From Archilochus colubris (lineage: Eukaryota > Chordata > Aves > Apodiformes > Trochilidae): DNA of 64,000 nt. The translations under genes and the position numbers were made by a program. Positions 4,670-41,716 of this stretch are shown one piece after another; positions within the stretch are counted from its first letter, which is position 1; every line of letters begins with the position of its first letter. The notes under the pieces are model-generated. The model saw only the letters and a program-made list of their open reading frames with translations, was not told the origin of the DNA and did no database searches. The stretch spans positions 129,220,792-129,284,791 of the forward strand of contig CM041084.1 in assembly GCA_023079485.1 (NCBI GenBank). The letters are read 5' to 3'.

Positions 4670-4792
4670 TTGTGGACTACTGTGCTCTGGATAACCAAGG
4701 TTGCCAACATGAGTGTGTTAACACCAAGGACTCCTATTACTGTAGATGCCACCCAGGGTTCATTTTAAATCCAGACAAAAGAACTTGCAGAA
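4670..4792 (+). CDS. MATN2: MATN2 EGF-like exon (array unit 1 in window)
   Basis: 123-bp exon between a ctctttcag acceptor and gtaagt donor, phase 1 at both ends. It encodes a six-cysteine EGF module beginning [11 protein letters not shown] and ending DKRTCRR, with CRCHPGF in the middle. It is of the VDYCAL type, like the other 5' units. Confidence 0.93.
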
Positions 4793-7700
4793 GTAAGTTG
4801 TGTTAAGATTTAATTATGAACACTTTGTGATATTCTTCTTTCTTTCAGTTCTCAGCATAATATTCCCACTGGTCCTGGGAACACTGAATAATGCATCAGA
4901 TGTAGAAAATGTGATAGTGCCCTGGAAGCCAAAGGTTTTGAAAGCAATGGAAGTTGTTTTGTTAGGGTAGTTTGGTTATTTGGGGGGGGGGAGGGTGTAA
5001 GGGTAGGGGTCCCTCTCATGAACAGGAAACTTTTAACATGAAACTTGGTTCCTGTTCAAGAATTCAACCACACCCAAACTTTGTCTTGCATGGTCTCCTC
5101 GATTATCCAGATTTTTCAGTTTGACTATCATCTCCGTAGTTGGATAAACCAAAAATTCTGTATGAGAAAATTTATAATCAGCTTGGTTTATAAGACAAGC
5201 TAAAGTTAAATAGAGTAATTCCATAATCAGAGGAAACATTGCAGCCTGTTTTCCTATGGATTTTTCTCGACTGAGTTCTTTGATAGTGTGCCAAAGCTGT
5301 GGCAGCACCACTATCTTCTATCAAGCATTCAGGTTTGCACCAAGTTATAATAAATTTATGGCTCTGTTTGCTTTATATTTGTCAAATTTGATTGATAACA
5401 AGCTAACAAGCTCAAAAATTAGGAGTGGAATTAGAATTAGGAGTGGATATGGAGGGGAACTTAGAGACCAGATGATACTCTGGCCAAGGCTTCCCATAAT
5501 TGGGAAAACCAGCTAAAACCTCCACAAGGTTTAATGTTGTAATTCACCTTTAGGAAATGTGAAGGGGAAACCTTAACATAACTTCCTAGTTACCTTCATA
5601 AATATGGGCCTCAATAAAGACATTTTTCTCCACTAGTTTTAGGTTAGTGGAACTGCTGATGCCAGTGGTGAAATTAGGCAATATTATTGGAAAATGTTGA
5701 AAAATATTGAAAAACTTTCTAAAAAACAATGCATCAATATAGCACTGCATTTCTGTGCTTTTACAGCTTTGGGTGCATTTCAGTCTGTGTGACAAGACAA
5801 GAGGCTGTTAACCCACAGCCTCTATTGTGTATTATGCTTTGTATCTATTTCAATTAGAGTTAACATTTAGAAAGAAAGCATCTAATCCAGGCTCTACATC
5901 TGACCTTATCAAGGGAAACAGACACACACTTCTAGGAGGCAATTGCTTACACAAATTTATGGAAGTGCCTGTATTTTCCTTGATTGTGCAGGGAGCCTGG
6001 ATGACTTGCCAGAGGAGACACATAATTTTTAGGTAGTCAAAGTCAAGGGAGGTCAATTTCCTGACTCCTCAAGGGACAGAGTCCAGTTTGTACTGGTTCA
6101 CATTGCTTGTAGATTGAATGGACTCACTCATTTGTCAAGTATCTGTCATCTAAGGTCTCTGTTGAGACCTTCTTCTCCCTTTAACTGGGAGGAGAAGGGA
6201 AGGGATTGTTCCAGAATTGGACTAAGTATGTCAAATGCATCTGGGCCTTGCAATACCCCTTGTTGATCCAGACCTGACCTGCAGACTGACTTCCCAGCTT
6301 GACCATGGCCTTGCCTTGCTACTACGAACCTGCCCAGTGATCACTGGGCTGTGCCAGACCTTGGCTGTCTTCACCAGGAATGGCCTTACCTCAGTGACTC
6401 ATAGAATGGCTTCAGCTGGAAAGGAACTTAAAGATCATGTAGTTCCAAACCCCTTGCATGGGCAGGGACACCTCCCGCCAGACCAGGTTGCTCCAAGCCC
6501 CATCCAGCCTGGCCTTGAACACTTCCAGGGAGGAGGCATCCACAAATTCCTTGGGCAACCTGTGCCAGTGTCTCACCACCCTCACAGGAAAGAATTTCTT
6601 CCTAATGTCTAACCTAAATCTAGCCTCTTTCAACTTAAAATCATTGCCCCTTGTCTTATCACTTTACCCTTGTAAAAAGTCCCTCCCCAGCTTTCTTGTA
6701 GGCAATAAGGTCTCTCCAGCATCTTCTCCAGGCTGAACAACCCCAGCTCTCTCAGCCTGTCTTCACAGGAAAGGTGCTCCAGCCCTCTCATCATCTTTCT
6801 GGCCCTCCTCTGGACTCGCTCCAACATCTCCATGTTCTTCCTGTGTTAGGGGCTCCAGAACTGGACATAGTGCTCCAGATGAGGTCTCACAAGGGCAGAG
6901 TAGAGGGGAAGAATCACCTTACTCAACTTGCTGGCCACACTTTTTTTGGATGCAGCCCAGGATACAGTTGGCTTTCTGTAGTGCAAGTGCACATTGCTGG
7001 CACATGTTGAGTTACTCATCAACCAACACCCTAAAGTCCTTCTCCTCAAGGTTATTTTCAGCCCATTCATGCAGGCTGTCTTCTGGCTTGACCTCTGACC
7101 TGCCTCAGCAGCATGTACTTGTCTGATCTTCTGGACTTCTGGTTAAACCTGACTATCATTTCCAGACCTGCCTAGCTCACTTTGCTTGGGTAGTGCGGGG
7201 TGATTACTGTCTGGGAAGGCCCCATCACTACTCAACTCCTTGCATCTTGGCTCTCCTTCCCTTAGGGAGCAGCTGGCCCATGCTGCTGCCTGACAGCAAG
7301 TTACTTTCAAGTCTGAACAACTATGGGGTGTTTCTAACCAAGGTCGAAGGTGTAGAACTTTGCAGTTCTTTGCTGAAATTCATAATGACATTTTCTGGCC
7401 CAGTCATCAAGCTTATCACGGTTCTCTGTCTTGAAGTTCTGCTGTTTGCTTTCAGTCACTGTCCTTTGTTTAGTGTGAGCCACAGATTTGCTTAGAATGC
7501 ACTTCGTGTCATCATCTCTATCACTGATGCAGATGTTTAGCTGTGTGATCCCCAGTACTGTTTCCTGTACCCTGTGGTGCTCTGGTCATTATTAGCAACC
7601 AGCCTAATGGGAAGCCACTGATCATGATCCTTTGAGCCTGGAAAATTTTCACTGCACCTCACAGTTTCTTTCTTCCAGCCTATGCTTTCTTCTAGCCTTT

Positions 7701-10700: not shown

Positions 10701-13700
10701 CAAAATATAGCTGGTTTATTATTTCTAGGGGCTTTCATTATGTATAAAGGCTCAAATGCATTAACCTGCCACACATACAAGGAAGAACAGTTCCTACCTC
10801 AGGAGGCCAGTTACCTCTGGGAATAATAGTTGACCTCTGTCAGTTTACAGGTTGTGTAATGAGGTGTTCAGAAGTGTGTGGATGTCTTTAAAAGTGTGAC
10901 TTACTTGATTTGTGGCCTGTTAGTCTATTCTTTGCAGTGCTGCGGGGTTAGGATCATTCTTACACTAGTATAAACTAATTAATTACACTGCATCTAAGGG
11001 AATGTCAGACTTTTTGACTTCATCAATAACAATAAAATCCCAGTGCTCCTTGCAGAATTGCTTTCCTTGTGAGGGTGCTTTATACACAAGAAGTAGCTAT
11101 CTCTAGACTTTGCTTATCTTCCCTTTCATGAGCATTTTAAACAGAACTATATAGCAAGCCCCCAGAGTTGTTAAAACCCCAGTGCTCCTGATGACCTGAT
11201 TGTCCTGCTTTGATCTAATGCACAGCCTTCAAAAGCAAGGTTGTGCATTTAATACGGATCAAGTCTAACATGCTCAGTAAAATAAAGAGGCACTTATGAT
11301 ATGGCAGTGTGTAGGACTTATCTGCAAAATGTTAAGAAATATTTAAGATTCTAACTTTTCTACTGCATGTAGTACATGTTTTCCTGAAGAATCTGTTCAA
11401 GTATATAGGGTTGATATATATATATATATATATATATCTATACCTAAGATAACAGATGGTATACCTCAGGTATGCCTTAAGATAACAGAGATTTGGAAAA
11501 TAAATAAAATTTTGTTTTCAGAGTTTTAAGCAGTATGGCAAAAAGTCAGAATAGTGCCTGGGAAAAAAAAAGGCCAAAAAAAGAAATCAAAGTAGCTGTT
11601 TTTTACCTAACTTATTTCTGAGGAATTATATTCCTTACTGTCACAATTTTTTTCCACTTAGGGCCAGACTATTGTGCTCTTCAGGACCACGGCTGTGAAC
11701 AGGAATGTGTTAATACAGATGATTCCTACTTTTGTCGATGCCAAGAGGGATTTACACTTAATCCAGATAAGAAAACATGTAAAAGTGAGTAATCCTTTGG
11801 ACATAATAAAGTTTATCTGCTTTTATTTCCTAAAACTGCTTTTTCTACTGAAAATATAGAAGTTTTCTCTATAATTAAGGTTGAAACAAGTGTTTATTTA
11901 GAAACTTGAATTTTAGCTGTGCCAGTCATGCTGAAAAAATATACTGTTAGCTGGTTTTTAAACTATAATAGATGTTTTCAGAAGACATGTTTGGAAACCT
12001 GAGCAGTAATATAGGAACTAGAGTGGCTCAAACCCAGTAAATTCATTGCTTATTTGAAACTTTCTGACTTTTTCTTTTAGGGACACAAACAGCTTTTATT
12101 TAAAAAAAAAAGTAAAGTAAGTAATCTTGCTTTCTCCAATTAGTTTAGCCAAAGACAGATGTATTTCATTAGCTTGGGAAAGTTTTGGATAGGTAAGATA
12201 GCTATTAAAATCTAAGTCACACACAAAACATTTTCCTACAAAATATGTAAAAACAGAATCAGCCACTTCAAGGTTTTAAACCAATCACAGATGTTATTTA
12301 CTTTAAACAGATTTTTGTGTTACAACTCTTCTTGAGTGGGGCCCTGGAATCACAGCAGATTTTCAGTTTTGTGTTGTTAAAATTTAAGGAGAATATATTC
12401 ACCAAAATAAACTTGCCTGACTCAGTTCTTGTGAGGGAGAATAGTAGTGCTGATACTTTATGAATAAGAAGCTTGCCTGGAGCAACATAGTTATTTTTAT
12501 AGGCCCTCATAGAGTTGATCTGGTTTTGGAACAATTGCCTTTCAGTCTCAAAGATGCATTCTCATTGAGCATCTTTGTCTACATGGTGCCATTTTAACAG
12601 CAATCCATGCTATTCTTGTGTTTATTATCTATATGGTAATTTAATACATTCAGGTTTTTATTGATTGGTTGTGCCTTGGTGAGCACAGGAACAAAAGAAA
12701 AGCATTGTGTTGAATATTTATTGCAAAAGATGTAATTGCTAATTAAAGGCAAATTGTAATTCCCATTTGGGTTATTTTTCTTTAACCTTAGAGGGCTTTG
12801 GATTTGGCTATAAACCTGATGATGTTTCTAGCATAAAGTTACTATTCCAAATCTTGTAATAATAAGGCTCATGACGGATAATCTTGTAAAATAATGCAGA
12901 ACATTTGCATATATGCCCTCTTTATATATCAGGGATCATGCATCACTAGGAACTAGCACCAGGCATTCCTTCTTCACCACTACGTATGACTTGTGATGGG
13001 CAGGTCTATGGGATTCAAAACATCCTGTGCAGCCAGGTATTTGCAATGTGTTCTTAGATCCTCAGCTCACTGTTGGCTTTAAGAGGTGACCAAAGCACAG
13101 AATCCAGTCTGATTTAAGTAAAGCAAGTTTTTCTAAGCCGTTTTACTTAAGAAACCTTTATGGCTGGCTTGAATCTGTTACTGGATTTCCCTCAACAGAA
13201 GTAAACTTCAGCATGACTGTGAATTTAAATGTGTTGATGTGGAAGAGTCATTTGTGTGCGAATGTCATCCTGGATACACCCAACAACAAGAGGCAATACA
13301 TGCAGAAATGAGTTTGTCTCATCAATTGCAGCAAATAACTAAAAAGTAACTGCTGGAGGGGGCGAGGTGTGAACAGAATGAGAAAATGCTCCTGGGTCCC
13401 TTTTGAGAACTCTCTGAGCTTTGCAAACCTAGGCTAATGTGAAGTCCACCACAAGCCCAGTTCAGTGAAGTAATGCTATTGTGAGATGCCTGATCCTATA
13501 GAGAACTAAAGCATCATCTTCTCCAACCCAAATAGCTGGAATAATGTGTTCAGCTAAGGTGATTAGCACAGTGGCATTGCTTACTGTTTAACATCTGTAT
13601 CATTGCTATGGGCAGCACAACAGATACTGATGGATGCTGATATGTGGGGATATGTAGACACCTCTCTCCTCTATGTCTGTGCTTTCAGTGATCTGTTTGA

Positions 13701-16700
13701 TAAAATTTCCTCTTTTATTAAGTATCTTACTAAACAAAGGATCAGTGTTGCACCAGAAAAATGCAATAACATTGCCCACTTGATGTAACCCAGTTATTAG
13801 AAGATACTTCTATTGCAAAGAACCATTTTGCACATAACCTGAAGTATTGGAAGCATTTTTTTCATAATGTACTTATGACATATTGTACCAAAGGAACACT
13901 CAGTCACTGAAATTAAAAAGAAGTTGATAGGCCGAGGAATAATTATTTTTAAATAAATGTTTTGTTACAAAGCCATATTTAGGGAAGCTTGGATGTATTG
14001 CCCAGGCTGAGAAATTTTTAACAATTATGGGTTTAGTCTGTTGCAAGTTGAATATCTAAAAATTATTGTCTCAAGACGCTCATTCTTTTTAAGATGACTG
14101 AACCTTCCCCTGTCCCTTTTGCTTTTTACTTTTTTTTTTTTACACATGTAATGAAACACACATGATGACCAAATTTACAGTTATGTTAATTTCTAAAGCC
14201 TGGTGATGAGCAGCTTTGTCATTAGTCCACTCTTTGAAAAAATGTGTTGAAAAATTCTGACTTAGAACCCAGTTTATTTAAATGCTAAAACTCACGTTAG
14301 TGTGGGTTTGTATTGTAAAAGACAGTGCCAAACAGATGTAATTCTTCACAGATATTGGAGGGGGAGGAGGTATTTTCTTTTTTTTCCATATTTTTTGTGT
14401 GCTCTGAGAGGTTACATAAGCCTCTTCATAATGAGGTAAACACTTGGAAAAAGGAGAATGTTCCAGCTGGAACTTGCTTTAGCTAGTAAAAGCTGACACC
14501 TCACCTCCACTTGTTCAAGCCAACGATATCTCTATCTATGTATAATGGTAAATCTGGACAAATTATGCAAAATTATGCAAACTCATTGCTTAGTTAAATA
14601 AACTAATAAAAGCAATATTTTGAACTAAGTAATTTTACATTAAGTACAGATTTTTTTAAATATAAATGAATAGCTTCAGACATGCCTGCTCACATCTGTA
14701 AATGATTTGCAAATAAAGACAGAGGAGACTGTGTTTGTGTCTGATGGAACTCCACTACTTCTGATCAAGTTCAGCTAAAGTCATTTGGGCCTATATAACT
14801 AAAAATAGCCATGAACAAGTTGTCAATTAAATGTTATAAGGAAGTTCAGTAGAAAGCCTTTTGCCTAAAATGTGCTTTTTCTGTACTTACAGAGGCAGCA
14901 GATTACAAAGTACACCTGTAAGTGCATGTGTCTCACCCAACTGCTTTCCTGTTCATACTATGGAACTGTATCATTTTTAAACCTCTCTCTCCCTTCCCTC
15001 ACCATTCATCTTTCACACAAGCAGTTACATACAAGACTAAAAAATTATTCCATTTTATTTTACTTGGAATAGCAATAGGAAAATCAAAGAAAAAGGATCA
15101 TATTAAGACACTCACACTCACAATATTTATTTGCCCCCTGCTAGGCTTCAAATGCTTGAACCTGTTGGCAGTTTTAAATCATTGATTTCTCATCCTGTTG
15201 AAAAATAATTCACTGATTATGAAATAATCTGAAAGCCATCATTTCAAGAGTTACTAATATTCATACTTTCTGTCTGAGAAAATTTTATGGTGAACAAGAG
15301 TCTTGCTTTTTAAAGAAAGTGAGCATGAATCTGTGGGTAAGACCAAGCAGGACTTTAGGATTCTCCCTTCACTCCACTTTGGGTTGGTTTCCATTCGTAA
15401 TTTTTGGCAAGGGAGATCTGAACTTCCTCAAGTTTGTCATCTGCCAATTGGGGTGGTTGCATTAGCAACACTTTGGTGTTGTTAATTCACTCAGGTTACT
15501 CAAATAGGTGAGGAGACTTGGTAAATAAAAGGCTGTACTGCTCTTTTTTCTTTGCTCTGCAAAGGTATCATATACTAATTATACTGTCATACTGTATGCA
15601 TCTAAACTTTGAGTGTGATTTCTTCAATTATTAACACAAATCATAGGTGTGGACCACTGCGCTGGAAGCAATCATGGCTGTGAGCAACTGTGCCTAAATA
15701 CTGGTGTTTCCTATGTGTGTCAGTGCTCTGAGGGATATGTCATCAATGAGGACCTGAAAACATGCACACGTAAGTCTTGTGAGAAGCTCCTTGGTCTCAG
15801 CTCACCTGGGAATGGCTGCTGTCTTCATCCAGGGAAGAGAACACACCTTCAGTTTATTCTTACTGTCTGCATCTTGATAGTAGTTCAAAAAAATATTAGA
15901 AAGCAGAAACAAACAGAAAAAGGATTTAGGAAAGGATATGTGTAAAGATAACGAAATCATCATGTATTCAGAAAAGTTTTGGAAGATCTGTTCTGATCCC
16001 CAGCTGTTGACAGTTTTTCAGTCTCATGAGTGATGTGTCTGACTGACAGGTCATCTTGACAGCAGTGTCCCCCAGGCAGACTGCGTCACTTACCAGGGGC
16101 AGGAGAAGTGAGAGTTCCAGACTGAGGTTTACATTTTGCTTGGGAACCCTTAATAAGTGAACCAAAACTGCCCTGATGGCACTCCACCTTTTATAAATGA
16201 TCTCTGAGAATGCAGTTCAATGCATTTATATTTACTTGCTTGTATGTGGCAAATACAGTTTCATTGTTACATTTTTTTAATAACATCAATTGCTCCTACA
16301 GGAGTTGACTATTGTGCTTTGACTGATCATGGCTGTGAACATTTGTGTGTAAATGGTGACAGATCCTATACTTGCCAGTGTTTTGAAGGATACAGGCTCC
16401 GTAGTGATGGGAAAACATGTAAACGTAAGTTACTATTCTGCAACTCAGAGCTACATCTTTATTACACAAATAGAAGAAATCTGTAAGGTAGGATTTGATT
16501 GCCCAAGTGCTGTTGACCAATGTAGTTTCAAATTCTTAAGGACTGCAAAAGTTCATAGCTTTTCCTTTGGTGTTGTGTTTGCCAGCAGTATGTCAGTACC
16601 TTTGGGTATGCTAAGGCATCTAAAGTGGTATTTATCATACATTTAGACACCTGAATCAGACCCTAAATGTCAGTACCATTTAAAAAGTAGCCCTGAAATT

Positions 16701-19700
16701 GGAATGTTATGGATCCAAAGCTATTTTATTCTGACTTACATCCTTATATGGATATATATTTATATGGATACATGGATGTATAATTACAACTCTCATTTTC
16801 TTCTCAAATCAATATCAAACAGATATCATGTTTCTAAAGTCTTATATAGCATGAAGCTTGTGATATTGTTAATGGGAAGTTCCTGTTGTCCAGCATAGAT
16901 TGAGTATGATTGCAAAAGAGATACCACAGTTGTATTACACATTTGACTATATTATGCAGTGATGATGAATGGCAGATATAAAAAAAAATTCATTGCAAAT
17001 TTTTCTCCGTTTCTATGTTTTTGATCACAAAATTATCAGAAGAATAAAGGATAAGTCTGAAAAATACACAAGCACTATTTTGCAACTGTAATCCCAATAA
17101 TATCCATAGATCTCATCAACATTTGCTGTTAAAAAACATATACAGAAAAAAAAAATTAAAGTAACCCAGAAATTCCCATGACAAATTAAAAGCTCTTTAT
17201 TCTCAGTTTGTTTATCACAGCAACACCCTGCTTTGTTATTCCATGCAAACAGAGACAAATTGTGCTTGTCTCAGAAAGTACTGACACTCTAAAAGCAAGT
17301 TAAATGTTCTGTCCCTGTAGAAGTCCAGAGGGATCTAGATAGATTGGAGCACTGGATAATAATTAATAGGATGAAAATGAACAAGTCCAAATGCCAGATT
17401 CTGCACCTGGGACAGAGTAACACCAGGTGTGAGCATGAAGTGGGAGAGGAGAGGTTGGAGAGCAGCCCTGCAGAGGGGGATCTGGGAGTGCTGGCTGGCA
17501 GCAGGCTCAGTGTCAGTCACAGGGACAAACCCCATTCCCTGCTGCAACAAACACAGCACATCCAGCCAGTCAAAAGAAGTTATTATCCCACTGTATTCAG
17601 TGTTGGTGCAGCCTCACCTTGAGCATTGTGTGCAGTTCTGGGCCCCACCACTGAGGAAGGATGGGAAGGTCCTTGACTGCATCTGGAGGAGGACAACAAG
17701 GGTGGTGAAAGGGCTGAAAGGAATGTCCTCTGAGGAGCAGCAGAGGAAGGATATTGTATCAGGAAGGATATCGAGGTCCTGGGGCGGGTCCAAAGGAGGG
17801 CAACCAGGCTGGTGAAGGGACTCGAGCACAGACCCTATGAGGAGAGGCTGAGGGAGCTGGGGTTGTTCAGCCTAAAGAAGAGGAGGCTCAGGGGAGACCT
17901 CATCACTCTCTACAACTCCCTGAAAGGAGGGTGTAGCCAGGTGGGGGTTGGGCTCTTTTGCCAGATGACATTCAACAAGACAAGAAGGCACGGTCTTAAG
18001 TTGTGCCAGGGGACGTTTAGGTTAGATATTAGAAAGAATTTCTTTACCGAGAGGGTGATCAGACATTGGAATGGGCTGCCCAGGGAAGTAGTGGATTCTC
18101 CATCCCTGGAGATATTTAAAAAGAGACTGGATGTGGCACTCAGTGCCATGGTCTAGCAACCTCAACAGTGGTTCAAGGGTTGGACTCGATGATCTCTGAG
18201 GTCCCTTCCAACCCAGCCAATTCTATGATTCTATGATTCTGTGATTTTGGGCTTGTCTAGTTTGGAGACAAGGAGGCTGAGGGGAAACCTCATTGCTCTC
18301 TACAGGTTCCTGAGGAAGGGATGTGGAGAGGAAGGTGCTGATATCCTCTCCCTGGTATCCAGTGGCAGGATGTGTGGGAATGGTTGAAAGTTGCTCCAGG
18401 GGAGGTTTAGGCTGGGTGTTGGGAAGTATTTTGTTATGGAGGGGGTGGTCAAACACTGGAACAGGCTTCCTAGAGAGGTGGTTGACACCCCAAGCCTGTC
18501 AGTGTTGAAGAGGCATTTGGACAGTGCCTAACAACATCATTCAACTTTTGTTCAGCCCTGACGTGGTCAGGCAATTGCACTAGATGATCATTATAGGTCC
18601 CTTCCAGCTGAAATGTTCTCATTAATTCTAAGTCCTTGAAGGAAAATAACAGGTTTAGGGGCAGAAGTGAAAGCAAGATGCTATTTTATATATGATTCAT
18701 AAATTTTTTTATTATTATTATTTTATTGTGAAATAGGAATTGTATTTAAACTTTACATCAGAAAACCCAACTGAACACCTGCCTTACAAGTTATAGCTGA
18801 GCTGACAATTTTCCAGAATTTCACAGCAGGATCACATAATTTGTCTTTCTCACTTCCTTTAAACGTTACATACACCAAACTTTTGTAATTCTGCTTTATG
18901 GAAAATGACAAACACTTTCTCACCTTAAGCAGAGGGGAAAAAAAAAGCATAACTATTTCAGGTTTGAGCAGGTTCATTACTGAAGATAAAAATATAATGA
19001 TAGAAAAATCTGTTTCTCATCAAAAAGTTTACTTAAAATGTGGATGTAGGATTTAGGTGCCTTTGGATCAAGAATCTGCATATTATGCACAAATAAAATT
19101 CTACACACTGTAGAACTGGGACAGTACAGTTTTCCTTAGAAGTAAGGTTGTAAAATTAGTAGGACAAAGATGTATGCTCTTGTTACAACAACAAAAAGAC
19201 AGGAGGTACTGTAAGTGGTTTGCACAACTGAGGCTGATATACTAGCAAGGGCAAAACCATTCAGTAGCTGGGAACTGTAAGACTTTGAACATTTTGTCCT
19301 TAACTAATACAATTTTTTTACCTGTTAAATTGTTCCCAGGTAAAAATGTCTGCAAATCAGTCAACCATGGCTGTGAACATATTTGCATTAGTACTGACAA
19401 TTCCTACATCTGCAAGTGTCGTGAGGGATTCGTTCTGAGAGAAGATGGCAAGACGTGCAGAAGTGAGTGACTGGTTTCTATTGAACATTTTTGCATTTGC
19501 ATCAGGCAAGGAAAGAAAGGTTTTTTTCAGTTCTGACTGGAAAAAAACCCCAAGCCCCTCCCTTTTGAGATACACATTTTTTTAATGTGTTTTCATTTGA
19601 ATTCTCTATTTGTATCAATCATTCCCAGGACAAGACATCTGCAAATGGGTCAGCCATGGCTGTGAGCATGTATGTGTTAATGAAGGAGACTCGTATGTTT

Positions 19701-22700
19701 GCAAGTGCCATGAGGGTTTTCTCCTGAGAGAAGATGGGAAAACATGCAGAAGTAAGTACCCTATAATTACACATAGTCTTTAATCTGCACTATGTGGATT
19801 TGTGGAAGTCTTGTAAAAAATACACCACCACAAATTTACTGTTATAATATAGAAGTAGTATTGTTGTACTTGCTAGAAGCTTGTAAGAGACTCTCGGGAC
19901 AGAAATAGCATATTTATTAGCCAAACTTCCATGACTGCAGACAAAAAAAGACTCAAAAGTTTCCAGGTGTGAAGATTTAGAAGTGTTTGTTGCCTAAATT
20001 TCTTCCCATTTCTTCCAGTGCTGTCAGTAGGCCTTATAATAGCTATTACTTCTCCCTGTTTGAAGCATTTGCTGTAGATGTGTTTTAACCATTTATCATC
20101 AACTATTCTCAGATCAAGACATTTGCAGTTCTGTTGACCATGGCTGTGAACATGTTTGTGTTAATGCTGAGGAGTCATACATCTGTCAGTGCTATGAGGG
20201 ATTTGTACTGAGAGGAGATGGAAAAACATGTAGAAGTAGGTATTCTTATACTTAATAGAAGATTTTTTTTGTAGTTGGTACATTTGTAGACATGTTTTAA
20301 GTACTGGCAACCTTATTTTTTTTTTCCAGATAAAGATGTTTGCAATTCTGTTGACCATGGCTGTGAGCATGTTTGTGTGAATACTGATAGTTCATACATT
20401 TATGAAGGATTGTATTGAGGATTTTGTATTGAGGGAAGATAAGAAAACCTGTAAACATAAGTTATTTTATGTCACTGTATTGTTTGCACTCACAGGTCTA
20501 CTGAAGAAACATATTTTGTGAGAGGTAGGTCTTCTAATGGGGCATTTTCCCTGACAAAAAGGAGGATAAATTCTTTCTGTACAAGGAGCTTATTACTTTT
20601 AGTCTTTAAAGGTTTGCAGATGCTCTCATTCATCAAACTGTAGTAAATAAAATCTAAATTATTCCTAGATAAGGACATCTGCAAGTCAGTCAGTCATGGC
20701 TGTGAACATCTTTGTGTTAATAATGATGATTCATACACTTGTCAGTGCCATGATGGATTTGTACTAAGGCAAGACAGGAAAACGTGCCGAAGTAAGTAGC
20801 TTATCAGTAAAAGAAGAAATTTCATTTTCCCTTTAGTAGATAATTCACTGATTCATTGTGGTCAGAATGTAATATTGTTCTACTTAGATCATAAGAATTC
20901 TATGACTTAATTATTGTTTAAACTAAAGATAAATTTCAGAAAATCAGGCAATTTTATGGTTTGAACGTAGCTTTTAAAATGTGAATTAAATTTCTAGATT
21001 GAGGATGTTGAGCTTTAACCTTTAGCACAGGGTTATTTTAAAATGCCTCATTTTACTTTATGGGTTGAAGTTCTAATTGCCACTGTGTTGTTCTGTGATT
21101 ATGCATGCAGATCATGACTTAAACTGTTCTTTAACTGCTAACTTTTACTTAGATGAGGATTTCTTCTTTATCTGCTATAATGGGATCTGGTTTAGATTTC
21201 CATCTCTTAAATGTAATGCTTGTTGAGTTAGAAGATTGTCCTCTGTCTTGAGAAGTTTTTTACTGACAGCATGAGGCCTCCAGGTGATTTGGCTCAGACT
21301 GACATATCTTGTAAAGATATGTTTTTCTTCTCCACATATTAAACCGAAGTATTTTGCTGAAAAGTCAGTCTGAACTTGTCTGTCAGTGCCTGCTTTCTAT
21401 GTGAAGGTAGTTCTCCATTAGCAACTGAAGGTGGTTTTTTGTGTGTGGGTTGCAGTGGAAAAGAAATAGGGAATTCTGATAGATGGCTCAGTTTCCTTCC
21501 GTACTTTCTCCCCATCTATCCTTCTTGAAGAGGATTTAAATAACTGGTTTTAACATTGCAGTCACACGAATCCTTCCATCAATTTTCAGCAATACCAGCT
21601 AGAATTTGTTTATCCTTACTTTTAAATAAGTAGTTCCTATTCTTCTGGGGTTTGCTTCTGCAGACTCTTAGAACTGATGTAAAGTTGCTAAAGAACTATT
21701 TTGCCTTGTTCCCTGTGGTGTTTTGTTTAATTTTGTTTTTAGCAACATGAATTGGTGCTTAAGACTGTACTAAAGTATTCCCTCCTTTCACTGTTGCTGC
21801 TCTCAATGTAAAGTCCTTCTCCTAAATCTAGCCAGATTAATTCTAGAATTATTTATTGCCAGTGGGAGGCCCCCAAACTGTAAAATTCTTTCTGCTGAGA
21901 TGGTAAAGAACTCAGGCTTACAAGGCAGCTTACAAGCTGCCTATCATTTAACTAGCCAGGGATTTGCTTTCCGTGTGCAGTTTTCCATCTTTCTTTGCTC
22001 ATGGGATTACACTCTCCCCCTCCCCCCTAGTCTTTGTATTTATAAAAAGAGCTTAACTGGAAAACTAAATTTAATATTATGTAAATATTCCCAGGAAAGG
22101 ATATTTGCAAATCTGTCAACCATGGCTGTGAACACACTTGTGTTAATGCTGGTGATTCATTTGTTTGTAAGTGTCAGGAGGGATTCCTGCTAAGAGAAGA
22201 TGGGAAAACATGCAAAAGTAAGTAGTCTGATATTTATTAGCATATTCTTCTCCTGCACGTATGGTTGTATAGAAATGCATTAACCAGCAAGAGCTGTCAC
22301 CTGTTTTCAGATAAAGATCTTTGCAAATCAGTCAACCATGGCTGTGAACATGTTTGTCTTAATACTGATGATTCGTATATCTGCAAATGCCATGATGGGT
22401 TCCTACTGAGAGAAGATGGGAAAACCTGCAGGAGTAAGTAGCATGAGAACTTAATTTGATGAATTACACAAATAATCAAGGTCTCTGCTGATGTATGTTA
22501 ACTACCAACTCTTCTGTTTGCAGACAAGGATGTCTGCAAGTCAGTAAACCATGGCTGTGAACAACTTTGTGTGAACAGTGAAGATTCCTACATCTGCAAG
22601 TGTCATGAAAAATTCATACTGAAGGAAGATGGAAAGACATGTAGATGTGAGTAGCTTGATCTGTGAAAGTATGAGGCTCAAACTTTTATTTGAGGCTTTT

Positions 22701-25700
22701 AAGCTGTTGTGGCTGTGAGCATTTCTACGTATGTATGTTTGTGATTTCCAACTATTTGAGCTGGTTAATAAGAGATACTGTCTCTCCCTAACAAACCTCA
22801 CCTCACCAAATCTATCCACTCAGATAAAGATGTTTGCAACTCAGTTGACCATGGATGTGAACATACTTGTGTTAATACTGATGATTCCTATATCTGCAAG
22901 TGTCATGAGGACTTCATACTGAGGGAAGATGGAAAAACTTGTAGAAGTAAGTTCTTTAATCTTTGTTTGGTACTTCCTCATCTGTTGATGGAATACACTA
23001 TCCAATGGGAGTGTGTTATTTGTGTCTTTAGAATCAACTCAAGTTGAAGTGAGCTACTTCATGGAAGATTATTGCCTTAGTTTTTTTAGATTTTGTAGAA
23101 GTTATCTACCTAGCTAACTGTGATAAATTAATTTTTCATTATTCCAAGGTAAAAATATATGCAAAACATTCAACCACAGTTGTGAACATGTCTGTGTTCC
23201 AACTGGTGATTCATGCACGTGTCAGTGTCACACGGGATTTATATTGAGGTGAGACAGGAAAACATGCAGGAGTAGCTGAAACTTACATGGGGAACATATT
23301 TTTTCAGGCACAGAAGAAATAACAGACTTAATTTCACTAAACATGTTCATGCCTGCTTTGTGTTTGAGAATTTGCATTTCTCTTAACAATTCTCAGGTAA
23401 AGACCCGTGTAAATCTGTTGACCATGGGTGTGAGCATGTGTGCATTAACAACAACAACAGTTCCTACAGCTGTCAGTGCCATGAGGGCTTTGTCCTGAGA
23501 CAAGATGGGAAAACGTGTCGAAGTAAGTAACTCAGGATGCCTCTCAGCAACTCTTCCCTCACGTTGCCACATCAATGAACAAAGGTGTTGCACTCGTCAT
23601 TCTTCAAATATCATGTTTGGAGTCCTTGGATTTATAAATATGTTAAATAGAATACATACAAATATTTCAATTTTTCCTAGATGAAGATGTCTGCAATTCA
23701 ATTGCCCATGGTTGTGAGCATATTTGTGTGAATAATGAAGATTCATACATCTGCAAATGCCATGAGGGATATGTACTAAAAGAGGATGAGAAAAATTGCA
23801 GAAGTAGGTACATTTTATTTTAAAAACATTTGTTTCTTCTATTTCTAAAGTTACTTGATCACTCTTCAAAAAATGCCTCACTTCAAAAATGATCTATTAT
23901 TTGAAAGCTCAAAGCATATGTGAGTGTGATGGAAAATGTCTTGAACAACTAAGTTTATGCTTTTCTAAGCAAAAAACCTAACAAACCAGGACAGTTGTTT
24001 TGGTATAGCAGCAAGTATGAAAATAATTCTTACCAAATATCAGGAAAAAAATTCAAAGTCAAATCTTGTTATCAAGGAATGTGCTCTTTAATCTGATTAA
24101 TATATTGTGGAGCTTTAATCTTTACATACTGCTTTTTACAACATCATTAATTCTATTCACTTACCTTCTAATAGGACATGCTTAGAGTATGACGTGGTTT
24201 ATCTCATCACCTCTTAATACTTGGAGGAGAAATTCTTCTACTGAAAATCAGTGAAAACATGGATGCCTTAGCTGAGGAGACTGTTATTGCCAAAATAATG
24301 GCAGCATATTCATGGCTGATCTCAATCCTAACTAAAACCATTCACCATGAACTGCTGCCCTGTCCTGACTTAGATAATGATATTGAGGTGTTTTTTGATA
24401 CTCATATTCATTGCATTTCCATTGCCTTAGTACACATGACACATCTTTTCCCCAGATATCTACAGAAAGGAATTCTTGAACAGTAGTTTTAAAACAGAGA
24501 TATTGTCTAAGAAAAAAAGCCCAAGTTTTAAAGCTGAAAATTCCTTGCTCCTACACTGACTTGATAACAGACATATTCAGCAGTTTCTGGAGTCAAAGTA
24601 ACTTCTTCTGCATAGTTCTCATTTTACAAACATCAGAAATGAGTGGAGCTCAGAGTTAATTTGGTCCAGCCTAAGATTTACATCTTACATTCCTGAACAT
24701 GGCACATTCTTCCTGAGAGTCATATTGATCAAATAGGAGGATCTATCTATCTGTCAAGCCAGCCCCTTGCACTAAGCACTCAAGTTGATGCCTGCTGGAA
24801 AAGACACGTAGCAGAACCAGGCTGCAGGTTCAAAGACATTCTTCAGTCCCCATACTCCCTAATCTTCTCAGGGATGCATGGTGCCTACAAACTGCCTTGA
24901 TTTTTACATGCTCACTTGCCAAAAAGTATGAGGACTCACTGTTTGTCAGTCTCCTGACCAACTCCTAGCTTTAAAAGTTAAACCAGGAAAGGTTAATTTC
25001 AGAAATACATAAGCCTTCTAATTACAATATTGTTAGAAAATTAAAAAAAAAATTACAAACAATTCTGATCCATGTTTAGCATCTAGGCACAGTTCTGGTA
25101 TTTACTCTCTCATCTATATTTTTGTACTGCTTTTCTGCCACTAGAGGTTTAAATTTGTGCTATAAAAACTCCGTTGTCTGAATTTGGTCCCCAAGCTTGA
25201 CCCTCATCCTAACCTCTAGGGCAGGCTAGCTAACTCTTCTCACTCAGACTTCACCAAGCTCTTAGGCTTTTGCCTCTCTGTTCCCTGCCACTTCCAACAG
25301 AACTAGATTTTAATCTCATATATAAGTGTGGCTTCACTGACTCATTTCTTTGTACCACTTTACCTTTTTGCTACTTCTGCAGCACAAATGCTAATGTCAC
25401 TCTTCAATGTCTTTCAGTGCTGATCAAATACACAAATGTAAAGTTAGCATATTGGCCTATCCCTGGAAAAAAAGATGGAAACTGTTTCTGTATTCTAGCT
25501 ATACTCTTCAGTTATGCAGTTCTCTCCACTTAACAGTAATTCATAAAATTTGCTGCTTGTTGCTGTATTTTTAAGAATTGCAATAATTCTGCAAAGCAGT
25601 ATGCCTCAGTAAGTATTCACTGTGATTATATCTTTGTTAAACTCTCAGCCATAGGCACCCTCTTAGCTTTTCATATAGATTGTACACAACATATTAGACA

Positions 25701-28700
25701 CGCTGGTAAGGTTGGATGAAGTAGGAACAAGGTGCCCTAGATGATCTCTGAGTTTATGCAGTCCCTGGCTATCTAGGTCCCCTTATCAGATATGTGGAGT
25801 GTTTTCATCATCTGAATACTCTGCTGCTGTTTCACAGGATGCACTGAAGGCCCAGCTGACCTGGTGTTTGTCATCGATGGCTCAAAAAGTCTCGGAGAGG
25901 AAAATTTTGAAACTGTAAAACAATTTGTCTCAGGAATCTTGGATTCACTTGAGATTTCACCCAAAGCTGCTCGGGTTGGTTTGCTTCAGTATTCCAATGA
26001 AGTTCGCACAGAGTTTACATTAAAGCAGTTCAGCTCAGCCAAAGACATGAAGAAAGCTGTGTCACAAATGAAATACATGGGGCGAGGCTCCATGACAGGA
26101 CTGGCACTGAAGCACATGTTTGAGAGAAGCTTCACTGAAGCAGAGGGAGCAAGACCATTTTCAGCAAATGTCCCTCGAATCTCCATTGTGTTTACGGATG
26201 GACGGGCCCAGGATGAGGTCTCCATGTGGGCTGCTAGAGCAAAGCGAGGTGGTAAGTGAAGATGGTTTTCACTTATAATGGTTTTTGTTAAGAGATATGA
26301 TAATAATATGGATGTGCTACAGAGTGTGCTGATCAAGAGAACATTTGCCATAGCAGTCCAGCTATTGACCACTGTAGCAGAACATTGGATCTTTGGTGTT
26401 CACAGGAGGCTTTGCTACAAGGCATGCAGCTCAACCCTAGTGCAGGAGCCATGGTGAGTGTCACACCACTGGGGTTCTGTTCCATCCACAGGTAATGGTA
26501 CTAAATCCGTGGCATGCCATGCAGTGCCCTGAACACACCCACTAAGGGGCAGGACATTTGAGACAAAGATTTTGCAACAGAGAACTTGTCCCTTCAAACA
26601 GAGATGTCTGTGCTCCTGAAAAAAGCTATTATAATAACTGGTTAATTTCATATGTTCTGTATTTTTAACCAAATTTACAGCGCTCGTGTTGTTCAGGAAG
26701 GAGGATGGGTCCTCTTAGAAAAGGATGTGGCTTCAGTGCTGTCTTGTCTTTCTGTTCCTTATCATGTGACAGGCTGAAATGTTACTGAATACTGGTGATT
26801 TTTAATTTAGAATATGTCTGGGCAGAACTCTATTCTCTAGAACACCCATACTACAAATTAGAAATTTTCAGTTGTTCTGCAGAGTCAACTGAAAATCTTA
26901 GAAACTTTTCAATAAAATGAAGGATTCCTTTTTTCTTTCCAACATGTGTTCTCTTTTATGAGAAAGTGTTTTAAGAACCATGGCTGATGTCCCACAACAC
27001 AGAGAAAATAGCCAGACTTTAGAAGATGCTGCACATCTTTTTTCTGTAGTTTTATCGGCTAGATATCAATCATAGCTTGGTACATGATTAGCATTGCTTT
27101 GGTCAGGAATGATACCTCTCTGTAAGAAGGGAAAAATGCCCAAGGATATGAGAAAATCATGAGCTAACAGGGGGGGGCATTACAAGTAATAAAGTGGTTT
27201 TAAAATTATTTATAATATTTTAAAACACAACCAAATATTTATATGCTAACTAGTAAGATCTGGGGAAGTGCATAGAAGATTTACAGGACTGAAGGAGGGA
27301 AGAAGTACAAGCCAGCCTTGGTACTTGCTGAATGAAACCTCAGCTCTGGACTGCTGACACTGATATTTGTAATGCTACAAGCCAAATCCATCCCCTGTGT
27401 AATTGCTGTGTAGGCAGTGTAGTAATGCTGAATATGAAATTGGCCTTGAATGCTTTATCACTGATATCTCCAAGTCTGTAAAAAGCAACAGACCTCAGCA
27501 TGACTGGTCCATTCATTAAGATGAATCAGCTTCTGGTGTTTTACTTTGCTGGCTGAAGAGCAATGGTAGGCAGATTCATGAGGAAAAGTAAGGAGATGCC
27601 TACATTAAAAGCTAAGGAGTTGGAAGATGCATATTTTATGATGTGATCAGGCCCAGGGTTCTTCAGCAAAAGGGGTAGAGTTGCAATTCAGTGAGTGTGT
27701 GGCTGTTACTACCCCATGATAATAAAGATATATCAAACCTCCTCATCCTAAGTTTTCCATGAAAACAATCAGCTGAGAAGGCAGGTGAATCTTATGAAAA
27801 AGCTTGAAATACAATGAAGCTAATAGTAGTATATGAATCACAAAATCAGTACGAGTTGTGGATACTTCCTAATGAAATGCATGAGAATAAAGAAATAACT
27901 GCTTAAAAAGGCAATACTGGAGATCACTATTCTGTCTGTTAATTACTTGTTTAAAATCTGGCCAGGGAAAGAGCTGGGAACCACTTCCTCCTTCCCTCCT
28001 TTCAGAGTGAAGAAAACTACAAGTATGCATTTACTTTCTCCCTAGCACCTTTGCTGAGGAAATACTTGTTCCAAGCATCCCTGTTGTAAGGTTATTTCCC
28101 TACTGGCCCCGCAAGTCACTTCTCCCCTGTTCTTACCCACACAGGTCTGGGAGCCTTTGTGTAAACCTCACAGCTTACCAGTGTTATTTAGACTGCATGT
28201 ATCTAATCTCAACATGCTCTGAGGATTTTGGTGAAACACTAAGCTTTTATATTTTTCACAAAAAAATTACTGCCATCGTTCAGCATTCTGGCCCAATTGC
28301 TAATATATAACAGGTCTTCCCTTCAACCCAGTAATTAGCTTTATTCTACACACCTACATACATAGGCACACACAAACCAAGAACTTTAAGCTCAACTGGG
28401 AGGCTGATGTGATTCTCTTTGATGTTTTGCAGTAACCCTTATGTGTTCTTTTACTATCAGTAGTGGCCAGACAACTGTCATCTCTTAACTTAAAATCTAT
28501 CTGCCAATTTCCCCCTCTATTCTGCATTGGTGAGGCCGCACCTGGAGTATTGTGTCCAGTTCTGGGCCCCTCAGTTCAAGAAGGACAGGGAAGTGCTTGA
28601 AAGAGTCCAGCGCAGAGCTACTAAGATGATTAAGGGAGTGGAACATCTCCCTTATGAGGAAAGGCTGAGGGAGCTGGGTCTCTTTAGTTTGGAGAAAAGG

Positions 28701-31700
28701 AGACTGAGGGGTGACCTCATCAATGTTTTCAAATATGTAAAGGGTGAGTGTCAGGGAGATGGAGTTAGGCTTTTCTCAGTGGTGACCAGTGATAGGACAA
28801 GGGGTAATGGATGTAAATTGGAGCATAGGAGGTTCAAGTTGAATATTCGAAAAAATTTTTTTACTGTAAGGGTGACAGAGCCCTGGAACAGGCTGCCCAG
28901 GGGGGTCGTGGAGTCTCCTTCACTGGAGACATTCAAAACCCGCCTGGACACGTTCCTATGCAAAGTGCTCTAGGTGGCCCTGCTCTGGCAGAGGGGGTTG
29001 GACTAGATGATCTTTCGAGGTCCCTTCCAACCCCAAGGATTCTATGATTCTATGATTTACAGCAAAGCAGTGAGTTCCTACACATCTCTCAATCACTAAA
29101 GCATATTAAGCCTTCTTAAAACCAATTTTGAAGTTACACAGTATATACATTTGCTGTGCTCTCCCATTCTCTCTCTGACTAATGCTCATATTTTCCTTTC
29201 ATGGAGGAACAAGGGTTTAGAACTGCTCAAGTAATAATTATGTGCAATTTCTTTTGAATCTAGGTATAATTATCTATGCTGTTGGAATAGGAAAAGCAAT
29301 TGAGGAAGAACTGCTGGAAATTGCTTCAGAGCCACCATACAAACATCTCTTCTATGCTGAGGATTTTACAGCTCTGGAGGACATAAGTGAAGAGCTAACA
29401 GTCCAGATCTGTGAAGGTATTCCACTTTCACTGAGGTAGAAAAGGAAGGAATGCTTATAGATTATTTGCAGACCACTAGTGTTATAGTATGTAGGTCACA
29501 AATCATTGGTGTCAGAAATACCTGACAAGGCATTTGTCACTCATTGCAAGGCATATGTCACTCAAGGTGATTTTCCTGCCCTTTAATACTTGAGGAACAT
29601 ATACCATTAATCTATCACCAGGTAAAGGCATATAATAATGGTCTTCATTTTCATAAAATGTACAGTTCTGTGCTGGAAGGTTTAACTGCTCCCTTCTCTT
29701 TCTTTTTCTGCAGTCAAAGCAGCCGTATGCTGAACCCTGCCCCACCAAAGAAGCATGATCTGCTTCATTAGGAATGTGGGATAATAATCAGGGATTTATA
29801 ATGTCTTAGTGAGAGCAAAAATCACTCTTTAAGACCAGTGGCAAGAAACCTAAACCACAGCAAAGCAAATCATCAGGAGTTGTGTGTATTTATAGAAGAC
29901 TCCAAATAGTTCATTGAACACACATTCACACCAACAAAGAGTGGATCTCAGTTATTTATAAGCTCTTAAGTTTTGCTCCACAAATGTGGAAGGTTTTATC
30001 TTCCTCACTCTGGCACAAGTAGCCTCTATATACACATTACCAGCTGAAGTTTTAGAAGGGGTAGGGAGGAGAGAGAATGTGAGCTGGGGCAAAATCTGTT
30101 CAGCCAGGGAGAGGTCAGCAAGTCTTTCCCATTCCCACAGTTCCAGGACTCTATTTGTACATTCAAATTGGTACCTGAAGCAAAATTCAGAAATGTCACT
30201 GTGAATAATAATCTAGAATTCTTCAAGATTAATTCCTTTTCACTAGCTTTTACTTGGCTGGAATTAAATGCAACCAGGTTTTATTTTCTTCTTTAATGTT
30301 ACTGTGTAAGTCTGGCTCGCAAGCAGCAATGCATTTCTTCCTCATACAGATATCAAGGAAGAACCTGAAAAAAAAAAAAAAAGAATATGAGGATACTAAT
30401 TAGCTTGTATATTTTTTGTGTTTCTCTCAGTCCTAAGAATTCTTAGTTCTATATTTCTGTAACACAAAGTACTATGATAGCGTGTAACCAAGGCTGTTCA
30501 ATTAACAGATTAGCTTGCTGATGACAGCCTGTCACCTCAAAAGCTTGGGGAGATGCCAAAGCCAGAACTATCTGGCAACTGGTGTACTAATTCCCTCATT
30601 TGCAAACTCAGGCTCAGTGATGGTAATTGCATTCCTCAGGCATCCACAGTAGTGTTTAGGAACAGCGATTTTTTAATGCTTGCTTTGGTTGGTTGGTTTT
30701 TTTAAACTGCATTACTTACCATATGAAAAATAAGTAAATCCTGCCCCTTTGTGGCTGTTTCTAGACTGGGCAGAGCTGGTGCCTCCCAGCTTCTGCCTAC
30801 CTGCTCTCTCACCAACAGGCAATGCCTCAAACCTGTGACTTGAGGACTGACACAGCCTTGTTTTTCTGGACACTCCAGGCCATTGCTCATCTGTTCACTC
30901 CACCAGAAATTCTGCCTCCAAGCTTCTTACACAAACTGAACTTTCATTTTTTGTTCCTGCTTCTGTTTTGGTGTACAACCTAATATTTTTCCCTCCCTTC
31001 CAATAGCAATAATTTCATTTCTACTCCAGCCTTGTTATTCAGCTGAGGCTTTTTGAGGCTCCAGCTTGGGAGGGCAGTGGGGACCCTCTGAACATCCACT
31101 GACAGAGCCTCTCATCCCACCTCAGCTGCGGATGGGCTGTGTATTTCCAAGCAAAGCAGAAATCCTCCAAATCTCTTTTGGGGTAAGGCTTTCCCTTTTA
31201 TTCTAGAAGAAAGCATCAGCCTTGTAGAATAGGTGTTGATTATTCTTGATAACCTCTAGTTTAAAAAAGAAAAACAAACCAACGTGTTTTCCATACCAAG
31301 CTCATGAAGTTCAACAAGACCAAGTGCAAGATCCTGCATCTGGGTCGAGGCAATCCCAAGCACTGATACAGGCTGGGCAGTGACTGGCTTGAGAGCAGCC
31401 CTGAGGAAAAGGACTTGGGGGTGCTGGTGGATGAGAAGCTCAACATGAGCCATCAGTGTACATGTGAATCCCAGAAAGCTAAATGTATCCTGGGCTGCAT
31501 CAAGAGAAGTGTGGCCAGCAGGCTGAGGGATGTGATTCTCCCCCTCTACTCTGCTCTCGTGAGATCCCACCTGGAGTACTGCATCCAGTTCTGGAGCCCC
31601 TGTTACAGAAGGGACATGGATGTGCTGGAATGTGTCCAGAGAAGGGCCACAAGGATGATCAGAGGGTTGGAGCATCTGTCCTATGAGGACAGACTGGGAG

Positions 31701-34700
31701 AGTTGAGGTTATTCAGTCTGGAGAGGAGAAGGCTCTGAGGAGACCTTATTGTAGCCTTCCAGTATCTGAAGGGGCCTACAAGAAATCTGGTGATGGACTT
31801 TTTAGGATGTCAGGTAGTGATAGGACTGGGGGGAATGGATTCAAACTAGAGGAGGGTAGATTGAGATTGGAAGTCAGGACAATCTTCATGAGTGTGGTGA
31901 GACACTGGCATAGGTTGCCCAGAGAGGTGGTAGAAGCCCCATCCTGGGGAGTTTTTAAGGCCAGGCTGGACAGGGCTCTGAGGAACCTGAGCTAGTGGGA
32001 GGTGTCCCTGCCCATGGCAGGGGGGTTGGAACGAGGTGATCTTAAAGGTCCCTTCCAACCCTGAAAATTCTATGATTCTATGAAAATCTGAGTTCCTTCA
32101 CCAGCGAGTTCCCAGCCTTTTTGATACATTAACACTTCAGTTCTGCCCACTAACTCCGGTCTTCCTCAACCAGTGATCTCAGGCAGAAAGGGACCTGGGA
32201 GTTTGGGTCATCAGGAAGCTGAACATGAGCCAGCAGTGTGCCCAGGTGGCCAAGAAGGCCAATGGCATCCTGGCCTGTATCAGGAACAGCGTGGCCAGCA
32301 GGTCCAGGGAAGGGATTCTGCCCCTGTACTCAGCTCTGGTGAGGCCACAGCTTGAGTCCTGCGTCCAGTTCTGGGCCCCTCAGTTCAGGAAGGATATCGA
32401 GGTACTGGAGCAGGTCCAGAGAAGAGCAGGGAGGCTGTGAAGGGATCCAGCACAAGTCCTGTGAGGAGAGGCTGAGGGAGCTGGGGGTGCTCAGTCTGGA
32501 GAAGAGGAGGCTCAGGGGAGACCTCATCACTCAAAGGAGGGTGTAGCCAGGGGGGGTTCGGTCTCTTCTCCCAGGCTGCTTTCCGTAAGACAAGAGGGCA
32601 TGGACTTGAGCTGTGCCAGGGGTGGTTTAGGTTGGATATTAGGAAGAAATTCTTTAGAGAGAGGATGATCAGGCACTAGAATGGGCTGCCCAGGGAGGTG
32701 GTGGATTCTCCGTCCCTGTAGGTTTTTAAAAAAGAGACCAAATGTGGCACTCAGTGCCATGGTCTGGGAACTATGGCAGTAGTGGGTCAAAGGTTGGACT
32801 TGATCTGGGACCATTTCCAACCTGGCTGATTCTATGATCTCTGTTCATTCTGTGTTCTCATGCTCAATCATTCCAGTCTTCACTTAGAGGACCTCATCTC
32901 CATTCCAGTGCAACTTAGCACAGCTACACATTATCCTGCATCTGTCAAAATTCACCAGACCAACAGAGATCCCGATAGCCAGAGCAAACCTGTGGGGCCC
33001 TGCAGCATCTTCCACCTCCCTTCTGCATCTTCCTGGCATATCAGGAAACTTTGCACCATCACCCTTTACCCTCATGCACTCACTTTCAGTGAAGGAACTC
33101 TGCATATATTCACTGGGATATGCAGATGCTTCATCCAATCCCCTGGCACAGCTGATCAAGTCGTGCAGTTAAATGTATGTTCTTCAGCTCATCTAGGCCC
33201 TACAGTTAATCGAAGGTGAAGCATTTATTTTCTGGAAAGCACCAGTTCTTAAGGAACTAAACTGCCTCTACACCACCCTCTTGCGGCAAAAAACGTGAGC
33301 AAAGAATGACTCGAGGTGTATACCAACATGTCAAGCAGGTTTACGTTTTTCTCCAGGTACCCTTTAACTAAAAAGATGGGTATGTGGAGTCTGAAATAAA
33401 TTCCTATATTTTAAAGGCTGTTCTTCATAAATTACAAGCTTGTATTTTTGCTTTTAAGTTTAATGCATCAGATAAAATCTACTGCACCCTTCTCACTTAA
33501 ATACTTCTGATTAATTTCCCATTATAAAGCAGAAAACTGCAGAGTAAGAAATGTCTTCCTTCTCCAAGTAGTTTTTATTTATATTGAGCTTGCCCCAAAA
33601 GAGTGATGCATGACAATGAAAGACACAATTTTCTCTTAAGGACATAAAGGAGGCTGCTGTTATTTCAGATTGCTTCACTACTATTCATAAAGCACCTCTG
33701 GTTTTGGTAGAGTTCCTCTGGTAGTCTGAGTTGAAGGGCAAGTCCTGGAGTTTCCATCAACAATGGACACCTCCTAACTGCATGGGTATGAGGCATTCTC
33801 CATGTGTTACAAGAGACAAACTCCCAAGTTACTGTTAACACACATCTCCCTTTCTAGGGAACATGAACATTTTTATTGTGTCTCTTGTGACCTCATTTCC
33901 TTCGGCACTTTCTTTCTACCAGCCTTGAAAGAATCAGCTCACCAGCAGGATTCATCTTCTGGGAGACTACGTAAGACTGGTCCACAGCCTTCAGGTTGGC
34001 TGCTTGAACTCACTGTCCTGCTGTCTCCCCAAATCTTTGCTAAGTTGCTTCTTAATGCTGCCTTCTGTAAAGAACTCCAACAATTCACCTACGGGAGAGC
34101 TGTTCATTACCTGCCCCTTCCTACCCCCCTCCAGGCCTCCCTCCTTTCTGCAATTCAGCTCTGCTTTGCACAGAAGAAGTTGAGATATTTTAACAAATGC
34201 ACGGCTGCCTGCTTCTTACACCATCCAAATTAATTACTTGATGGGGAAACTTCTGTTTCAACACCGTGCTTGCTATGTTGAGGCTTGTTCAGCTTTCAGT
34301 CACTTTGCTCAGGAGCCTTTACAAGTCCCTTTCAGTTCTGCAACCCACAGCTTAAATCATCTATACAGTACATACAGCCTAAAAGCTCAGTTCCTTCACA
34401 CCTTTGTATCCCAGTCCTCTCTGTGAATGATCCTCACTGCATTCAGTAAGCTTACTCACTAATTAAGATCTCAGTGCATGTGAGTAGAAAAATCACTGTA
34501 TACTTAAGTGGGTCTGATTTTTAGACTTTTGGGGTTGTTTCCTGCAGGATCCGAATCAACCACAATAGCCATCACAGATGTCATTGCCTGTCCCAATCTT
34601 GCAGTACACTACAAGTATCTCTTTGAAGACAGTCACACTCACCCAACAGGAACAACAGGTAATCAGGTTACCTTACTTTAGAATGATCCAGACCACTGTC

Positions 34701-37744: not shown

Positions 37745-41716
<3,972 letters not shown>

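Follow-up and report, generated by a model that had tools for sequence, protein, structure and literature searches.

We analyzed a 64,000-nt window of the genome of the hummingbird Archilochus colubris (contig CM041084.1) that contains the 3' part of a matrilin-2 gene (MATN2) on the plus strand; all coordinates given here are positions in this window. Between the exon for EGF7 and those for the second von Willebrand factor A domain (vWA2), the gene carries an array of 12 EGF units of one type (19340 to 23803), of which 10 are intact (A1 to A3, A5 to A9, A11, and A12) and 2 are dead (A4 and A10). An initial annotation of the window had described this array as a lineage-specific expansion. From the comparison of sequences reported below, the array looks instead to be ancient and common to birds and not a novelty of this hummingbird species.

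MATN2 and its EGF exons in the window

Exon mapping and a profile search with nhmmer reproduced the coordinates and the counts of intact and dead units that had been assigned to the array. Four further intact exons (EGF3, EGF4, EGF6, and EGF7) precede it, which brings the window to 14 intact EGF exons, again as annotated. Each of the 14 is 123 nt long (126 nt for A11), is preceded by an AG acceptor and followed by a GTRRGT donor, and is of phase 1-1, such that each unit could be added or skipped without a change of frame. All intact array exons encode six cysteines. The 16 units annotated initially scored between 74.6 and 111.7 bits in the nhmmer search (E values, 9.2e-34 to 2.7e-22), with the same exons having been used to build the profile. 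The introns between adjacent intact array units measured 166, 361, 433 (containing the dead A4), 1303, 93, 90, 177, 450 (containing the dead A10), and 158 bp; thus, five of the nine were shorter than 200 bp, in keeping with the annotated picture of one unit type separated by short introns. Tandem Repeats Finder reported no row within the array.

Over vWA2 and EGF3, EGF4, EGF6, and EGF7, the best-matching protein was model P0026 of Calypte anna (347 of 350 residues identical), which identifies the source as a hummingbird; proteins of a swift, of an ibis, and of an owl shared second place at 93.4%. The identification of the gene as MATN2 is supported by its domains. As expected for matrilin-2, a vWA2 domain lies 3' of the EGF run (186 of 188 residues as in the Calypte model), and it is followed by the unique domain and the C-terminal coiled coil, encoded in four exons (33923 to 35798). 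Within the coiled-coil part, also as expected, there is an AT-AC minor intron on the plus strand (34990 to 35745), which begins with ATATCCTT at 34990 and has TCTAC before 35746. Minor introns are described for all four matrilin genes, with the AT-AC intron conserved (PMC6865273). As a separate observation, the bird models P0005, P0007, and P0026 read through into this intron and end in or contain YIL. The vWA1 domain, EGF1, and EGF2 were found in the Calypte model and are expected to lie to the left of the window in the hummingbird gene, which would give the hummingbird protein a total of about 16 EGF modules. Matrilin-2 is described as having 10 EGF modules (PMC6271824), and the window alone holds 14 intact ones; because EGF number varies among vertebrate MATN2 models, we did not treat the count of 10 as defining the protein.

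Table 1. MATN2 exons and exon relics in the 64,000-nt window
Feature	Position	Strand	Basis or state
EGF3 exon, intact; first MATN2 exon in window	4670..4792	+	Groups with EGF3 of other birds in tree
EGF4 exon, intact	11662..11784	+	Exon mapping; tree
EGF5 relic, dead; limits approximate	~13198..13310	+	nhmmer profile from units, E 7.2e-9
EGF6 exon, intact	15647..15769	+	Exon mapping; tree
EGF7 exon, intact	16302..16424	+	Exon mapping; tree
Array unit A1, intact	19340..19462	+	Exon mapping
Array unit A2, intact	19629..19751	+	Exon mapping
Array unit A3, intact	20113..20235	+	Exon mapping
Array unit A4, dead; limits approximate	20330..20458	+	Missing cysteines, indels, in-frame stops, no donor GT
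Array unit A5, intact	20669..20791	+	Exon mapping
Array unit A6, intact	22095..22217	+	Exon mapping
Array unit A7, intact	22311..22433	+	Exon mapping
Array unit A8, intact	22524..22646	+	Exon mapping
Array unit A9, intact	22824..22946	+	Exon mapping
Array unit A10, dead; limits approximate	23149..23274	+	One in-frame TGA (23250), extra cysteine, weak donor
Array unit A11, intact, one additional codon	23397..23522	+	Exon mapping
Array unit A12, intact	23681..23803	+	Exon mapping
vWA2 domain, exon 1	25838..26251	+	tblastn match; splice sites
vWA2 domain, exon 2	29264..29416	+	tblastn match; splice sites
Unique-domain exon	33923..33994	+	Match to P0026 (Calypte) or P0006
Unique-domain exon	34548..34658	+	Match to P0026 (Calypte) or P0006
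Exon, coiled-coil start; AT-AC intron next (ATATCCTT at 34990)	34894..34989	+	Match to P0026 (Calypte) or P0006
Last coding exon (coiled coil, stop TGA); upstream intron ends AC	35746..35798	+	Match to P0026 (Calypte) or P0006

Unit order shared among birds

A tree was built from 324 units, taken from the window and from 27 protein models of 26 species, on 40 alignment columns with a quick search and support values from the Shimodaira-Hasegawa-like approximate likelihood ratio test (SH-aLRT). The array units formed one group apart from EGF1 to EGF8 (support, 85). Groups that united units across species were found for 8 of the 12 array positions, namely, A2 (nine species; support, 86), A4 (eight species; 90), A5 (89), A6 (89), A8 (93), A10 (97), A11 (93), and A12 (84). 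Such a tree had been proposed as a check on the initial annotation, and its outcome speaks against a species-specific expansion.

We then compared the 10 intact units of the window with the 14 of 69 bird proteins (13 species) that had five or more array units. Reciprocal-best matches were collinear in 183 of 191 pairs, with identities of 75 to 95%, and thus joined units at the same position and in the same order. The reciprocal-best filter also passed a non-array unit in several species, which is listed first and unpaired in Dromaius, Ficedula, Oxyura, Falco, and Malurus. The unit order was common to the models of passerines (among these Vidua and Lonchura), parrot, hawk, crane, falcon, barbets, quail, and duck, and largely to that of emu. 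Sister units within the window share 57.5 to 80% of their residues, and for every intact unit, 7 to 13 of the 14 proteins from other birds contained a closer match than any of its sisters; a score of 14 was not to be expected, because the bird models are incomplete.

Several observations weigh against a simple one-to-one inheritance of the units. In the tree, A1, A3, A7, and A9 formed no single group, the A8 group included two Pogoniulus units, the A11 units of emu and parrot were separate from the A11 core, within a wider group (support, 85) that also took in two turtle units, and 185 of the 290 inner branches were left open on an alignment of just 40 columns. Eight reciprocal-best pairs were discordant (four in Grus, two in Oxyura, and one each in Dromaius and Pogoniulus), the A2 and A12 units of the hummingbird are divergent, and labels assigned with one reference per position were strictly ordered in 52 of the 69 bird proteins. 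The orthologues are, moreover, predicted proteins, none of which has all 12 units (maximum, 9).

To place the units in time, we used labels based on two references per unit, which were partly drawn from species that were later labeled and are illustrative. By these labels, A2, A3, A4, A6, A10, A11, and A12 occur in both palaeognaths (emu or tinamou) and neognaths, as does A1 by position, and A5 together with one unit labeled A7 or A9 occurs in both Galloanserae and Neoaves. For A8 and A9, examples came from Neoaves alone, unless the quail unit labeled A7 or A9 is one of them, which is a reservation about the age of the whole set. Judged from these incomplete protein models, the ancestor of living birds would have had about 8 of the units and that of neognaths about 10.

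The divergence among the units agrees with such an age. The array units differ from one another by 17 to 37% in DNA, with the closest pair being 83.3% identical, and the mean proportions of synonymous and nonsynonymous differences (pS and pN) were 0.704 and 0.148. The median ratio of nonsynonymous to synonymous substitution rates (dN/dS) was 0.14, which shows that the intact units have been kept for their protein by purifying selection; this ratio was computable for 26 of the 45 unit pairs, with the remaining 19 saturated at synonymous sites, a further reservation. When the 11 array introns were compared with each other on the plus strand, there were 13 hits with E values of ≤1 (best, 0.015), and 30 simple shuffles, which did not preserve dinucleotides, gave 3 to 10 hits (best E value, 0.0005). 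The real introns are slightly above the shuffles in hit number, but none of the hits is significant, and shared features of splice sites or base composition may be the cause. A first comparison likewise gave weak hits (best E value between different array introns or flanks among the matches listed, 0.013) and one 111-bp stretch matching at 72%, which lies within the long intron between EGF7 and A1; the shuffle counts of that comparison (12 to 28) are no fair control, as one stretch was counted twice. Taken together, unit divergence and the lack of significant intron similarity are strong evidence against both a recent duplication and a repeat created by assembly.

We therefore consider it very unlikely that the array expanded recently in the hummingbird lineage or species. 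The packing of 12 units into 4.5 kb with short introns and the maximum of nine array units among the 69 bird proteins listed would fit such an event. Recent copies, however, would be near-identical, whereas here synonymous sites are near saturation, the introns show no significant similarity, and both closer matches than sister units and the order of the units are found in other species. Even less credible is an artefact of assembly, which had been named as a possible refutation of the initial annotation. Tandem repeats are prone to misassembly, and the lone stop codon of A10 could be a base error, but units that differ in DNA to this extent, with introns not significantly alike, are hardly collapsed or repeated copies, and both the units and their order are found again in the protein models from other birds.

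Decayed exons, gene models, and neighboring features

The hummingbird array differs from those of other birds, such as quail, parrot, emu, Vidua, and Lonchura, in A4 and A10, one or both of which are coding in several of the models from these birds. A4 is coding in the models of quail, emu, duck, crane, hawk, and finches, and A10 is coding in those of quail, parrot, emu, and Vidua, which indicates that both were lost in the hummingbird lineage. The reading frame of A10 is kept apart from its single TGA.

A seventeenth EGF exon, absent from the 16 units annotated initially, is a relic of EGF5. It sits between EGF4 and EGF6, the place of EGF5 in gharial, turtle, lizard, and mammal models. The relic has lost its first cysteine, its reading frame breaks down near the 3' end, and AT stands in place of GT at the donor position. 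The Calypte model takes in the same damaged exon. We surveyed EGF5 in 70 bird proteins, 7 of which lacked the anchors used, leaving 63 to be scored. EGF5 was skipped in 10 of the 63 models (including those of quail, parrot, emu, flycatcher, duck, and falcon), the corresponding stretch was incomplete or unlike in 30, and it was longer and held other units in 4. Six cysteines in EGF spacing were retained in the other 19, and a death of EGF5 in all birds is not supported by these counts. Thus, EGF5 is dead in the window; many bird models appear to carry it damaged or to skip it, and it may be alive in some birds.

Public models probably underannotate the array in birds. Three array units were found in 53 of the 69 bird proteins, and in 36 of these 53 the three were labeled A3, A6, and A12; the same trio comes back in many orders, which suggests that a single template was projected onto them. 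Since none of these 69 proteins has more than nine array units, none of them confirms inclusion of the full set. Among the literature matches listed, no title or abstract concerned an EGF array expansion in bird MATN2, with subscription papers lying mostly outside the search.

Some features of the window lie outside the MATN2 exons. Open reading frames at 6400 to 7150 (minus strand), 17290 to 18530, and 28490 to 28970 (plus strand) fall in MATN2 introns and resemble relics of CR1-type retroelements. On the minus strand at 37996 to 38130 there is a SNORA72 (Rfam, 104.9 bits), whose host gene we take to be RPL30; this would presumably be the next gene, convergent to MATN2. A G+C-rich minisatellite with 3.2 copies of a 43-bp unit occupies 42005 to 42148.

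Origin and possible role of the array

The comparison with mammals bears out one part of the initial reading. The models of Canis, Rhinolophus, Macaca, Panthera, and Pongo have three modules after EGF7 (EGF8, which groups with EGF3 to EGF5 in the tree, and two of array type), and that of a wallaby has three between EGF7 and vWA2, one of array type. All six have 10 EGF modules in total, which matches the counts given for human MATN2 in the initial annotation. With one or two array-type units in these mammals versus 10 intact units here, the array is an expansion relative to mammals, although, given the same-order units of other birds, not one specific to the hummingbird lineage. Mammalian MATN2 shares the EGF run, vWA2, the unique domain, the coiled coil, and the AT-AC intron with the hummingbird gene but has 10 EGF modules instead of a predicted 16, and the mammalian models include the EGF5 that is dead in the hummingbird.

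Other sauropsids also have extra array-type units after EGF7. We counted five and four in two gharial models, four in Crocodylus, two to seven in turtles, and three to seven in lizards, as well as two in a salamander; a gharial-centered search returned no further crocodilian protein. Most units might predate the split of birds from crocodilians or turtles, with the other sauropsids having since lost or underannotated them. The Gavialis unit 11, which by label is nearest to A4 and A3 (88 and 86%), the grouping of Gavialis unit 12 with A12 (support, 80), and that of two turtle units with A11 (support, 85) point this way. We nevertheless find so early an origin doubtful, because the six non-bird sauropsid proteins gave only one to five reciprocal-best matches each to window units, 4 of 10 such pairs were collinear in Anolis, and the three crocodilian models have four or five units, albeit in models that may be as incomplete as those of birds. 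Crocodilian, turtle, and lizard MATN2 thus differ from that of birds in having no one-to-one match to the bird units, and nearly all models listed have EGF5. Sauropsid MATN2 appears prone to growth in EGF units, and the longest set found here is that of birds.

We consider it highly likely, as a whole, that the array arose by tandem duplication on the bird line and has since been maintained as a long spacer. In this history, a phase 1-1 EGF exon of the mammalian EGF9/EGF10 type would have been duplicated until about 12 units stood between EGF7 and vWA2, and most of the set would have been in place before living birds diverged, with the units keeping their own identities and order since. Ten units would have remained under purifying selection in the hummingbird, while A4, A10, and the separate EGF5 decayed in its lineage. 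Splicing of the exons would yield a protein of about 16 EGF modules, and the added modules would lengthen the spacer between the matrix-binding vWA1 and vWA2 domains. A longer stalk between these two domains is plausible and is the effect of the array that has the best support. It is important to note that a stiff, calcium-bound rod should not be assumed. Calcium-binding EGF modules carry the ligand motif [DN]x[DN][EQ] before the first cysteine, and the consensus for Asp/Asn hydroxylation is Cx[DN]xxxx[FY]xCxC. The former was found in none of the 14 intact units and the latter in 12 (all but A1 and A11). In the two pieces scanned, which cover 7 of the 14 units, the Pfam family EGF_CA still scored above its cutoff, with FXa_inhibition scoring higher. 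Fibrillin-like proteins likewise contain long tandem EGF runs, and insect ones were among the hits at 35 to 38% identity, but no vWA was among their listed Pfam domains, and it is the 14 hummingbird units that lack the calcium-ligand motif. Of the 57 other sequences listed by a search of solved structures, none was named matrilin.

Because every intact unit can be skipped without a frame shift, spacer length may vary by alternative splicing. The array might even be mainly a bank of alternatively spliced cassettes, with most chains containing few units chosen by tissue and stalk length being regulated. The frame-neutral exons suit this idea, as do predicted isoforms that differ in array units (five and four in Gavialis, five and four in Dermochelys, and three to five in Chelonoidis) and an Oxyura isoform numbered X13. 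These differences, however, are gene-model predictions and not reads, the recurrent trio of bird models looks more like template projection than like splicing, and purifying selection on 10 units is compatible with either view. We regard the cassette bank as less likely than not. Bolder still, and in our view improbable on present sequence data, is that the 12 cassettes act as an adjustable ruler in which tissue-specific inclusion sets the distance between the vWA domains for a bird-specific use, e.g., in eggshell or tendon matrix, with some of the birds having dropped the ancestral EGF5. A list of candidate secreted proteins of the hen uterus during eggshell formation includes MATN2 (PMC3999959), which makes a bird-specific use testable.

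For work on this family, bird MATN2 models would need checking at the array, the EGF5 relic, and the AT-AC intron before use. Birds appear to have an older and longer matrilin-2 than the described 10-module form, with public models undercounting its units. The array is a clean natural example of a protein spacer growing and decaying one exon at a time, in which the dead units can still be read.

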